Shown here one piece after another: positions 44,346 through 48,842 of a stretch of DNA of 48,842 bases; position 1 is the stretch's first letter, and each line of letters begins with the position of its first letter. The notes below the pieces were generated by a model, which searched no databases, was not told the DNA's origin, and saw only the letters and a list, made by a program, of their open reading frames with translations. The translations under genes were made by a program, and so were the position numbers. Source of the DNA: Candidatus Uhrbacteria bacterium (GTDB lineage Bacteria; Patescibacteriota; Patescibacteriia; UBA9934; GWF2-40-263); assembly GCA_013204385.1 (NCBI GenBank), contig JABMNY010000026.1, positions 1 through 48,842 on the forward strand. Direction: 5' to 3'.

Positions 44346-46559
44346 CTACGGGGTGTAGTCGCTGGTGAAGACACCTTCGTAGTCGAAGGTGAGGATCGAG
44401 TAGGAATCGCTCCCCTCGAAGTTGCCGTCGACGGTGGTGTCGTCCGAGCCGTTGTCGTCCCAGTCGAAGCTCCATCCGAAGGTGGAGATCTCGACGGAGC
44501 CCGAGGGCATCAGATCGCTGTCGAAGTTGCCCTCGACATCCCCGGTATAGGTCCCGGAGAGGTAGGTGGCGAAGTCGCCGGAGAAGACACACTCGATCGA
44601 GCCACTGATCATGGGATCCACGGTCGTGTCGACGGTCAAGTTGACCGTTCCCTCACAGGAGTCCGATCCCAAACCGAAGGTGGTCTCGGTGAGGGTGATG
44701 GTGAAGTCGCCCTCGTAGTCACCTTCGGTGACGCAGGGCGAGGAGTCCATGTCCTCGTCGCAGTCGTTGTCCACGGAATCTCCGCAGACCTCGAGCGCGT
44801 CCGGGTTCACGTACTCGTCCGTGTCGTCACAGTCACCCATGACGCTGACGTACCCGGAGGTGACGTCACAGGCATCGGCACTGGTGGCGGGGTCGCCGTA
44901 GCCGTCGCCGTCCACATCGGCGTAGAAGGTCTCACCGACATCCTCGTCGACATCGCCGTCGCAGTCGTTGTCCTGCTCATCGCAGTACTCGGTGGCGCCG
45001 GGGTAGACCGTTCGGTCGTCGTCGTCACAGTCGGTGCCGTCTGCCACCGTCCCCGAGGGGGCGGAACAGGAGACCGTGCTGATCGAAGCGTCGCCGTAGC
45101 CGTCGTTGTCGTCGTCGGTGTACCAGGTGGTCGCGTCCGAGGAGCTGTCCGGATCCGTGGATCCGTCGCAGTCGTTGTCCGCGCCGTCGCAGTACTCGGT
45201 GGCGCCGGGGTAGCTGGTGGCATCCCCGTCGTCGCAGTCGGTGTCGTCGGCGACGTAGCCCCACGGCTGGTCACACTGGGTGACCGTGACACCTCCGGCA
45301 TCGCCGTAGGTGTCGCCGTCGGCGTCGGGGTAGTAGGTTCCGGCGTCCGTGGCGCCCACATCGGTGGTGCCGTCACAGTCGTCATCGAGGTCGTCGCAGA
45401 CCTCGACAGCACCGGGGTTCACATCGGCGTCGATGTCGTCGCAGTCGGTCGCGTCTGCCACCGTCCCCGAGGGGGCGGAGCAGGACATGGTCGAGCTGGT
45501 GGCGTCGCCGTAGCCGTCGGAGTCCGAATCGGTGTACCAGGTGCTGGCGTCGGCGCTGGTGTCCGGATCCGTGGATCCGTCGCAGTCGTTGTCCGCGCCG
45601 TCGCAGTACTCGGTCGCGCCGGGGTAGCTGGTGGCATCCGTGTCGTCGCAGTCATCCGCGCTGTCGACGTAGCCCGAGGGCTGGTCGCAGGCCTCCGTGG
45701 TGGAAGCGGGATCACCCGACCCATCGCCGTCGGCATCCTCGAAGTAAGTCACCATGACCTCTTCGTCGATGTCGTCGTCGCAGTCGTTGTCGATCAGATC
45801 GCAGACTTCCTCGTTGCCGGGGCTGACCTCGGGGTCGTGGTCGTTGCAGTCGGTGTCGTCCGCAACCGAGCCCGAGGGCTGGTCGCAGGCGTCCTGGCTG
45901 ACCGTGGAGTCACCGTAGCCATCGTTGTCCGCGTCGGTGTACCAGGTCGAGGCATCCACCGCGTTCTCGTCGACGGTGCCGTCGCAGTCGTTGTCGATCT
46001 CGTTGCAGACCTCGGTGGCACCGGGATTCACGTCAGCGTTGTCATCGTCACAGTCGGTGCCGTCGGTGACCCAACGCCCGTCTCCGCCGGACAGCTCACA
46101 GCCGTTCTCGAGTTCCCATGCGGGATCCCCGTAGGAGTCACCATCGGAATCGGCATACCAGAGGTTGCCCTCCGAATTGTCGACGACGCCGTCACAGTCC
46201 TGATCCACGTTGTCGCAGACCTCGGTTGCACCCGGGTGGATGCTGGCGTGATTGTCGTCGCAGTCCTCGCCCTGGGCCACGTAGCCGTCGGGCTGGTCGC
46301 AGGACCAGGTGACGTTGCCCGTCTGGCCGTAGCCATCCGAGTCGCCATCGAGGTACCAGAGGGTCTCGAGACCGACCGTGGGGTCGTTGTCGTCGCAGTC
46401 CTCATCAGCACCGATGCCGTCGCCATCATCGTCCGTGAGGGACGTGGTGCCGGTGTCGTCGATGTTGGGATCGAGGTTGCGATCATCGCGCTGAACGGTC
46501 AGAGGACTACAGGCGGACAGGATGGCCAACAAGGCCAGGGGCAGGATGGAACGCGTCAT
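44346..46559 (-). CDS. Lipoprotein with about 8 MopE-type putative metal-binding repeats
   Basis: MTRSILPLALLAILSACSPLTVQRDD lipobox; repeats like DCDDxDxxxYPGATEYCDGADNDCDG; strongly GC-rich. Confidence 0.85.
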   Translation of the reverse strand: MTRSILPLALLAILSACSPLTVQRDDRNLDPNIDDTGTTSLTDDDGDGIGADEDCDDNDPTVGLETLWYLDGDSDGYGQTGNVTWSCDQPDGYVAQGEDCDDNHASIHPGATEVCDNVDQDCDGVVDNSEGNLWYADSDGDSYGDPAWELENGCELSGGDGRWVTDGTDCDDDNADVNPGATEVCNEIDNDCDGTVDENAVDASTWYTDADNDGYGDSTVSQDACDQPSGSVADDTDCNDHDPEVSPGNEEVCDLIDNDCDDDIDEEVMVTYFEDADGDGSGDPASTTEACDQPSGYVDSADDCDDTDATSYPGATEYCDGADNDCDGSTDPDTSADASTWYTDSDSDGYGDATSSTMSCSAPSGTVADATDCDDIDADVNPGAVEVCDDLDDDCDGTTDVGATDAGTYYPDADGDTYGDAGGVTVTQCDQPWGYVADDTDCDDGDATSYPGATEYCDGADNDCDGSTDPDSSSDATTWYTDDDNDGYGDASISTVSCSAPSGTVADGTDCDDDDRTVYPGATEYCDEQDNDCDGDVDEDVGETFYADVDGDGYGDPATSADACDVTSGYVSVMGDCDDTDEYVNPDALEVCGDSVDNDCDEDMDSSPCVTEGDYEGDFTITLTETTFGLGSDSCEGTVNLTVDTTVDPMISGSIECVFSGDFATYLSGTYTGDVEGNFDSDLMPSGSVEISTFGWSFDWDDNGSDDTTVDGNFEGSDSYSILTFDYEGVFTSDYTP
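45041..45225. repeat. Copy A of near-identical internal repeat, period 414 bp
   Basis: 80-bp stretch 45146-45225 matches 45560-45639 with one mismatch. Confidence 0.8.
45455..45639. repeat. Copy B of near-identical internal repeat
   Basis: See copy A; flanking CTGCCACCGTCCCCGAGGGGGCGGA also repeated at the same offset. Confidence 0.8.
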
Positions 46560-46633
46560 GTGACACTCCGGGGGTTGAACATTCTCCCTCCCCACCAAAG
46601 GGGTAGGTGCCAGGCCGATGGCAGGGAGAGATT

Positions 46634-46673
46634 GTTTGGTTGAAGGGATCTTGGCCTGGTTTCAGGACCAAAC
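46634..46673 (-). promoter_or_regulatory. Leader inverted repeat upstream of MopE lipoprotein 1
   Basis: GTTTGGT (46634-46640) / ACCAAAC (46667-46673), 26-nt spacer. Confidence 0.5.
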
Positions 46674-46726
46674 GGCACTAAAATCAGTTCACGATCTGCA
46701 CAAAAAACCAGTCATTTTGACGTATT

Positions 46727-46755
46727 CTTATACCACTATACCCGCTTCTTGTCAA
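46727..46755 (-). promoter_or_regulatory. sigma70 promoter of MopE lipoprotein 1: TTGACA-N17-TATAAG
   Basis: -35 at 46750-46755, -10 at 46727-46732. Confidence 0.7.
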
Positions 46756-46828
46756 TGCGTTTCGTATGGAAAAGGCGGGAAAATGAATGAGGTGGGAAAG
46801 GTGGAATGGTGAGAAGGTGAAAGCAGGC

Positions 46829-46953
46829 AAAAACGTCTGAAATTGAGCTGAGAACGCCGGTCTGGAGGGAGAAAAGCTCGTGAGACGACCCAAAAGGTCG
46901 TCGAGCGAGTTTTCGACTGAAGACCAAGTTATCAGCCAATTTCAGACGTTTTT
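46829..46953. repeat. Long imperfect palindrome, copy 1 (about 125 bp)
   Basis: 17-bp perfect outer arms AAAAACGTCTGAAATTG/CAATTTCAGACGTTTTT; core GACGACC-caaaa-GGTCGTC. Confidence 0.85.
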
Positions 46954-46958
46954 GAAAA

Positions 46959-47010
46959 AGAAAAGCCCCCGAGTGAAGTCGAGCTAGAAAGCTCTTCTCC
47001 ACGCGAGGGC
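46959..47010 (-). terminator. Terminator of MopE lipoprotein 2
   Basis: GCCCCCGAGTGAAG-tc-GAGCT-agaa-AGCTC-tt-CTCCACGCGAGGGC; minus-strand tail TTTTCTTTTTC. Confidence 0.7.
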
Positions 47011-47083
47011 GCGTGCTTGATCTCTGCCCTACTCCGGATGAACTTCATCGGGTAGAGATCTCGTTGTTGTGGCCGGAAGTGGC

Positions 47084-48427
47084 CTAGACCTGACAGTCGG
47101 AGTCGGAGCTCACGACGAGGACGGCGGAGCAGGAGCCTCCGTCGTTCCAGACCTCGAGGTCGGACTCATCGTACCAGTCGCCATCGAACCAGATGTCGAT
47201 GCCGACGCTGGAGTCGATGACACCGCCGGCGCAGAGCCAGTCGCTCGCGGGGTTGCCCTCGCTCACGTTCAGGCGCAGTCCGCAGCTCGACGAGAGATCA
47301 TACTCGGAGGTCAGGAACTCCACGTCGACGCTGGTCCCGGAGGACTGCGTGTCGGTCTCGTCCCAGACGTCGCCGAGGTCGTCGGCGTCCGTGTAGGTCT
47401 GGACGTTGAGCTGGTAGTAGCCCGACGACCCGTAGGTCGCCAGGACGTACGCCTGCCAGTCCTCGTCGATGTCACCATCGCAGTCGTTGTCGATCTCGTC
47501 GATGCCGGTGATCGGCAGTCCGTCGTCGTCGAGCTCGCGCTCTTCGACGCCGGGGTTGATGGTGGCGTCCGAGTCGTCGCAGTCGACATCTTCGGAGTAT
47601 CCGTCCCCATCGCTGTCGACGGAGGGCTCGGTGCAGACGGAATCGGACCCGTCGCAGTCGTTGTCGATGCCGTCGCCACACACTTCGGTGGCGTCGGGGT
47701 TGATGGTCGAGTCTGCGTCATTGCAGTCCTCGAACTGGTACCACCCGTCGCCATCGACGTCGGTGGTGTCGGTGACGACGTCGCCGTCTTCGTCGATGAA
47801 GCCGTCGCAGTCGTTGTCGATGCCATCGCTGACATCGCTGGCGCCGGGGTGGATGGTGGAGTCCGCGTCGTCGCAATCGACGTCCGCGGTGTAGCCATCG
47901 CCGTCGCTGTCGACGGCGGGCTCTTCTTCGGTGCCGGTGTCGGCGTCCTCATCGGTCTCGTCGTCGCAGTCGCTGTCGATGCCGTCGCCGGGCTCGTCTT
48001 CCGCACCCGGGTGGATGTCGGCGTTCGAGTCGTCGCAGTCACCGCCGGCGGGGGTGTAGCCGTCGCCGTCGTTGTCGACGGTCGAGCAGACATCCTCCTC
48101 GTCCACCTCGCCGTCGCAGTCATCGTCCTGCCCGTTGCAGGTCTCGACGGCGCCGGGGTAGATGGCGGGGTCGGTGTCGTCACAGTCGATGAGACCGGTC
48201 CGTCCGTCCCCGTCGAGGTCTTCGTAGACCGTGTCGGTGCCGATTCCGGTGTCGGTGTCTTCGTCAGTGCCGGTGTCTTCGTCGGTGTCCTCACCGGTGT
48301 TGGTGATGTTGGCGCCGGTGTCCTCGTAGCAGTCTTCACTGCACGAGTTGTCGTCACGCTGGACCTTCATCTCTCCGCAGGCGGAGAGGAAGAGGGTGAC
48401 GGACAGAGGAAGGAGGAATCGGGTCAT
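47084..48427 (-). CDS. Lipoprotein with about 5 MopE-type putative metal-binding repeats
   Basis: MTRFLLPLSVTLFLSACGEMKVQRDD lipobox; DCDDADSTIHPGASDVSDGIDNDCDG repeats; strongly GC-rich. Confidence 0.85.
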   Translation of the reverse strand: MTRFLLPLSVTLFLSACGEMKVQRDDNSCSEDCYEDTGANITNTGEDTDEDTGTDEDTDTGIGTDTVYEDLDGDGRTGLIDCDDTDPAIYPGAVETCNGQDDDCDGEVDEEDVCSTVDNDGDGYTPAGGDCDDSNADIHPGAEDEPGDGIDSDCDDETDEDADTGTEEEPAVDSDGDGYTADVDCDDADSTIHPGASDVSDGIDNDCDGFIDEDGDVVTDTTDVDGDGWYQFEDCNDADSTINPDATEVCGDGIDNDCDGSDSVCTEPSVDSDGDGYSEDVDCDDSDATINPGVEERELDDDGLPITGIDEIDNDCDGDIDEDWQAYVLATYGSSGYYQLNVQTYTDADDLGDVWDETDTQSSGTSVDVEFLTSEYDLSSSCGLRLNVSEGNPASDWLCAGGVIDSSVGIDIWFDGDWYDESDLEVWNDGGSCSAVLVVSSDSDCQV

Positions 48428-48530
48428 GGGAACTCCAGGGGGTTGGTTCGGGGCACAAACAATGATCTTTATCCGATGGGCAAACTCCCACCGCAATCTT
48501 CACATTGTTTAGACTCCCCGATTCTGTCAG

Positions 48531-48579
48531 GGGTTGTCCGTTCAAGGACGAGTTTTGTCGTCACTAAACGGACAAACCC
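48531..48579 (-). promoter_or_regulatory. Leader inverted repeat upstream of MopE lipoprotein 2
   Basis: GGGTTGTCCGTT/AACGGACAAACCC with nested GACGA-gttttg-TCGTC. Confidence 0.6.
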
Positions 48580-48655
48580 TGTTTATTCTATTATTCAGCT
48601 ATTAATGATCTTTTCCCTTGAAAGTAAGACGATTCATCTCACTCTCGAGGCTCTA

Positions 48656-48684
48656 AGAATACCACATTTTCCCCATTTTGTCAA
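48656..48684 (-). promoter_or_regulatory. sigma70 promoter of MopE lipoprotein 2: TTGACA-N17-TATTCT
   Basis: -35 at 48679-48684, -10 at 48656-48661. Confidence 0.7.
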
Positions 48685-48722
48685 CCTATCTGGACAAAAT
48701 TGGAGGAAGGTAGAAAGCAAGT

Positions 48723-48842
48723 AAAAACGTTTGAAATTGAGACAAGAACGCCGGCTTGGAGGTGAAAAATCCCTGAAATGTAGGTAAATCCTACTTTGAA
48801 GGGATTTTTCACCGAAAGCCAAGTTATTGGCCAATTTCAGAC
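48723..48842. repeat. Long imperfect palindrome, copy 2 (truncated by window end)
   Basis: GTTTGAAATTG/CAATTTCAGAC arms; 13-bp GTGAAAAATCCCT/AGGGATTTTTCAC; TAGG-taaat-CCTA tip. Confidence 0.85.

Follow-up and report, generated by a model that had tools for sequence, protein, structure and literature searches.

To which of the described repeats of bacterial genomes do the two long palindromes of this contig come closest? Single REPs are 20-40 bp in length and carry a GTAG-type foot. REPINs show compensatory changes in their hairpin (PMC3116915), and ERIC/IRU/RU-1 of Enterobacteria, Correia/NEMIS, RUP and RPE are gene-free imperfect palindromes of 100-200 bp which lie between genes, form a long stem-loop and are mobile (PMC2229807). 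The two palindromes studied here belong to an undescribed hairpin family whose members measure about 125 nt and lie dispersed in the small genomes of Patescibacteria. In our judgement the family is likely to be a non-autonomous mobile element, carrying no gene and spreading in trans, of the same kind as ERIC, Correia, RUP, REPIN or MITE elements; we rank it with these small mobile repeats because of its dispersed copies, its filled and empty sites, the orientation of its right end, the double changes in its stems and its unpaired loops. An earlier description of mobile repeats of such kind in Patescibacteria was not found in the literature searched, and they appear to be undescribed so far.

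Two hairpins at a contig end and their family

The window, that is the whole stretch of 48,842 nucleotides analysed, is the entire contig C17 from a draft genome of 1.05 Mb. Both palindromes reported in its last part by a first-pass annotation are present (Table 1), the second having a right arm that is about 6 bases short owing to the end of the contig. On the + strand, copy 1 reaches a minimum free energy (MFE) of -73.3 kcal/mol, as compared with -32.7 ± 3.5 for shuffled sequences (z = -11.7), and copy 2 likewise departs from its shuffles (z = -10.3); the + strand of the window copies folds better than the - strand. The replaced, yet self-complementary cores that had been noticed are real, as 11 pairs are altered on both sides between the two copies with their pairing kept. 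Draft contigs end inside copies or 300-700 bases from them in the window (at 48842) and at L003, L080 and L082; the hairpin repeat probably breaks the assembly of Patescibacteria draft genomes, with contig C17 stopping within a copy.

Table 1. Hairpin copies, their parts and neighbouring MopE-repeat genes in the window
Feature	Position	Strand	Remarks
Copy 1, complete hairpin	46828..46954	+ (folded strand)	135 bits, E 1.7e-31; copy 1 included in model building
Copy 1, outer left arm CAAAAACGTCTGAAATTG	46828..46845	+	18/18 complementary to 46937-46954
Copy 1, outer right arm = right end of element	46937..46954	+	
Copy 1, conserved loop GCC	46856..46858	+	faces AA at 46926-46927
Copy 1, conserved GGA of UGGA loop	46864..46866	+	faces GA(A) at 46919-46921
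Copy 1, tandem GA of inner loop	46882..46883	+	faces GA at 46903-46904
Copy 2, orientation as copy 1	48722..48842	+	108 bits, E 2e-24; contig end cuts right arm
MopE-repeat gene, 470 aa, between copies 1 and 2	47084..48496	-, antisense to copies	PF11617, E 4.5e-44
MopE-repeat gene, 750 aa, beyond copy 1	44346..46598	-, antisense to copy 1	PF11617, E 4.6e-78

A blastn search with copy 1 located a further two copies in this genome, one at C8 and one at C22. Their outer arms are unrelated in sequence to those of the window copies, yet pair with themselves, so that the conservation of the outer arms described in the first-pass annotation holds between the window copies but fails family-wide. A covariance model built from these four copies (R1) gave 16 matches in the 1.05-Mb genome, one of them being the reverse strand of copy 2, which leaves about 15 places, nine of them strong. 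Matches of R1 occur in 22 of 34 relatives (E ≤ 0.01), and G055 and G051 have at least 44 blastn matches each. With a model built from 49 members (R2), E ≤ 1e-6 and stricter filters, matches were obtained in 13 of 380 genomes across the phylum, which is a lower bound. The covariance search that had been proposed for the genome and its relatives thus brought up further copies, with the complementarity of their cores retained. Named public contigs carrying both the family motif and a model match come from Candidatus Uhrbacteria, other Patescibacteria and one unclassified bacterial MAG; four DNA-pattern matches, in Thalassolituus, a gammaproteobacterium, Chloroflexi and Phycisphaerales, have no model match and were taken as chance. 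No curated covariance model of Rfam 15 matches the elements, only tRNA genes scoring above the gathering score, and hairpin matches were absent from plasmids searched by blastn and from viral contigs searched with exact motif patterns.

One genome, G043, holds 16 copies, mostly near-identical, with an extra 26-bp inverted repeat; these near-identical copies (L098-L100, L107-L117) lie within the terminal inverted repeat TATAGTCATCRCACTATGAAACAGGA. Similar ends, of the TATAGTCAT type, are seen in G017 and G018 (L059, L062).

Anatomy and paired changes of the hairpin

Along the folded strand from 5' to 3', the consensus begins with a variable outer stem of about 17 bp, a bulged base and a short stem interrupted by a mismatch of the GA/GA or G/A type. 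Next inward come a 3-bp stem (UGC/GCA, AAC/GUU or UAC/GUA), a GCC loop facing AA and a 5-bp stem, followed by a UGGA loop facing GAA, an AAA/TTT-rich stem, a tandem GA/GA loop and the apical stem-loop. The best conserved parts of the family are the unpaired inner loops (GA/GA, UGGA/GAA and GCC/AA), not the arms. As G-U (G-T) cells outnumber A-C cells in the paired columns of the whole family (147 versus 65), the + strand is taken to be the one that folds.

The selection on folding that had been suggested from the window copies is borne out by an alignment of 49 copies, in which 42 of the 48 modelled pairs show double changes, double-change cells number 636 versus 179 ± 12 after shuffling, and 92% of the cells are paired versus 35-45% for slid partners; this alignment was fitted to the structure and is therefore biased toward pairing, but the effect far exceeds such bias. 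Two copies by the 3' end of 23S rRNA, apparently at the same site in two species (L080 and L104), show 38 differing columns; 10 of their pairs are double-changed and kept, and 3 are broken. Our data thus support that the shape of the fold is preserved by paired mutations, under selection on folding.

Filled and empty sites at gene borders

Has the hairpin moved? At six sites in the genus g25 it is present in some species and missing in others. The spacer between tRNA-Tyr and tRNA-Thr is empty in G040 and G056 (CAACCCATGGAGCC), contains the hairpin plus 20-25 nt with ATGG on either side in G051 and G055, and is filled with diverged repeats in G046. At two further sites, near a lexA-like gene and metK, G046 alone carries the hairpin, and four sisters are empty. 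The gap between EF-G and S7 is filled in G051 and G056 and empty in G040, the hairpin sitting in the S7 stop codon such that its first base converts TAA to TAG; the site upstream of S7 is filled in G046 and G056 and empty in G040 and G051, and the 3' side of recA is filled in G046 and empty in G056. These filled and empty sites, which are from g25 and not those of the window copies, show movement of the hairpin, although some single cases could be deletions. Collapsed hairpins, with their arms retained and their core lost, are seen between tRNA-Thr and tRNA-Tyr (L229, L228 and L230 in G040, G051 and G056).

Short direct repeats flank several copies in G009 (4-5 bp) and one g25 site (ATGG), and TA is enriched about threefold at the element ends without being constant; a pooled scan of the flanks revealed no constant target-site duplication, and nothing beyond the symmetry of the arms themselves. 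With more than 12 copies per genome, sites that differ between sister species and short terminal direct repeats in some copies, the MITE-like element offered among the initial readings is supported.

When positions relative to genes were inspected, as had been advised, right ends were found at tRNA ends, stop codons and 23S 3' ends. Among 139 places, defined with simple ORF calls and including orthologues, so that not all are independent, a tRNA gene is found at most 10 nt from the right end in 29 cases, as against a single left-end case (p = 6e-8); for stop codons the same distance gives 28 right-end and 11 left-end cases (p = 0.009). The tRNA cases at the right end divide into 21 at the tRNA 5' end, mostly 2-6 nt away, and 8 at the 3' end; some tRNAs have the right ends of opposite copies on both sides (L036, L048, L095). 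Gene edges abutted by the right end include convergent stop codons, and three copies are located at the 3' end of 23S rRNA (L080, L104, L180; 23S judged from sequence). Most copies are solitary beside tRNA, rRNA or housekeeping genes. In L131 (G046), the stretch after the right end of one copy, from 1681 onwards, looks like the beginning of a tmRNA gene (GGGCTTGACGGGTTTCGATAC).

Could the fold be kept for reasons other than mobility? A functional structured RNA, or a processing or termination hairpin as might serve tRNA/rRNA end maturation, could have multiplied and been kept by host selection. Strong covariation together with conserved non-canonical loops agrees with such a function, as does the retention of pairing via double changes in same-site copies; strict loop conservation would suit a functional RNA, and the copies lie directly at tRNA 5' and 3' ends, 23S 3' ends and stop codons. 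However, a given tRNA or gene pair may have the hairpin in one sister species and lack it in another, and the copies at the 5' ends of tRNAs lie on the opposite strand from those at the 3' ends, which would give the two RNAs different loops. Neither a match in Rfam nor an enrichment of -10 motifs in the left flank (88 forward versus 80 reverse matches) was found; with no such promoter signal, an independent RNA gene, one form of the structured RNA initially considered, is not supported. We hold a host-selected RNA to be improbable. An explanation that dispenses with selection on folding altogether, by which template switching during replication (palindrome correction) keeps the arms alike, strikes us as scarcely credible. 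Such correction is established for quasi-palindromes and would yield double changes, but it would erase mismatched loops too, and these are the best conserved parts; as the asymmetric inner loops remain unpaired, we infer that arm-to-arm correction alone is insufficient. Collapsed, core-deleted hairpins do occur in sister species, but as an exception.

What moves the hairpin, and its place among known systems

While most copies stand alone, those of the window accompany MopE-repeat genes (Table 1). G019 carries a row of four genes of the secreted or lipoprotein-like type: MopE repeats are clear in three, the fourth falls short of the PF11617 cut-off, and every one of the three gaps contains a hairpin of the same relative orientation; in G002, one hairpin is located behind a MopE gene. 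In the window, G019 and G002, the folded hairpin strand is always antisense to the MopE gene. The stretches of hairpins and MopE-repeat genes, which are of the lipoprotein type, cover 44346-48842 of the window, 846-9684 of L091 and 533-1627 of L071. The alternation in the window and G019 possibly resembles a cassette array; it may also reflect only the long spacers of surface-protein loci.

An integron-like cassette system, in which hairpins lying behind the genes serve as recombination sites and assemble arrays of genes, would account for this alternation with uniformly antisense folding, to which G002 adds one instance. We nevertheless consider it very unlikely, since most copies lie outside arrays, alone beside tRNA, rRNA or housekeeping genes, and attC boxes are absent. 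The first-pass annotation had already rejected attC, as GTTATCA and GTTATTG of the window do not match the R box (GTTRRRY / RYYYAAC), and this rejection is now strengthened by the AAC/GTT triplet itself being variable, with TGC/GCA or TAC/GTA in most other members. Better placed, though still unlikely, is a REPIN-RAYT system proper, with REP-type hairpins moved as single-stranded DNA by the Y1 (IS200-like) transposases of about 285-300 aa that many such genomes encode. PF01797 proteins are found in 36 of 59 relatives, and they occur in 11 of the 13 genomes that have five or more copies versus 5 of 12 with none; in G009, 93 nt separate a RAYT-type gene from a copy, and REPIN hairpins, too, show compensatory changes (PMC3116915). 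Yet PF01797 finds nothing at 1e-5 in the copy-rich G019, G018 and G055, a clear nearby copy was seen only in G009 and G027 among the PF01797 loci scanned, the hairpin of about 125 nt is far longer than single REPs, and its flanks lack a constant GTAG-type foot. The association with RAYT as the mover is thus weak, with few linked loci. A scan of upstream sense genes for a transposase yielded no recurrent family besides one Y1 gene in G009, and a search of G043 for an autonomous partner via its inverted repeat, with up to three mismatches, yielded none.

Returning to the non-autonomous mobile element, a transposase that reads the folded strand probably moves the hairpins in trans, RAYT of the REPIN type being a weak candidate. 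Such a transposase would recognise the folded single strand, which is the + strand in the window, would cut it out or copy it, and would join its right end preferentially at gene borders. Recognition of this sort would preserve both the loops and the fold, and effects on host genes, with hairpins in a tRNA leader or directly after a stop codon, would be by-products. We give only a small chance to a more particular system restricted to Patescibacteria, in which an enzyme acting in trans reads the tandem-GA loop architecture of the folded strand, directs the right end to borders like stop codons and tRNA termini, and has here and there given rise to integron-like MopE arrays.

Patescibacteria genomes are small and tightly packed, and the family gains more than 40 copies there beside tRNA, rRNA and housekeeping genes. 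With its strong structural covariation, it would be one of the clearer examples in which a folded nucleic acid is itself the unit of mobility. It also offers a direct test of which enzyme moves hairpins, and of the cost incurred where a hairpin of 125 nt lies in a tRNA leader or at a stop codon.

How, then, does the family compare with the known systems? It is like the ERIC-type repeats in size (127 bp for ERIC, about 125 nt here), palindrome shape, absence of genes, intergenic dispersal and mobility, with no sequence relation found (no Rfam, plasmid or viral match). It differs from them in that its ends vary freely while its inner loops are fixed, and its right end abuts gene borders; the TA at its ends is not constant. 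In contrast to a normal terminal inverted repeat, its outer arms differ in sequence between copies. With REPINs and their RAYTs it shares mobile hairpins, here probably moved in trans, and compensatory stem changes, and RAYT-type Y1 genes are present in many of the genomes; however, the invariant part of REPINs is their ends and that of our family the inner loops, and most RAYT loci scanned here have no adjacent copy. Like integron attC sites, it has hairpins of a single strand whose unpaired features are conserved and whose stems vary, and in the MopE arrays the hairpin lies behind the gene with the antisense strand folded, but it has neither a conserved AAC/GTT core nor a GTTRRRY box, and no cassettes outside these arrays. 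By the features tested, the family belongs to the ERIC/Correia/RUP/RPE kind, except that it lacks a partner element and any clear target duplication; what is new with respect to the known families are its conserved GA-type loops, its freely varying ends and its one-sided abutment on gene borders.
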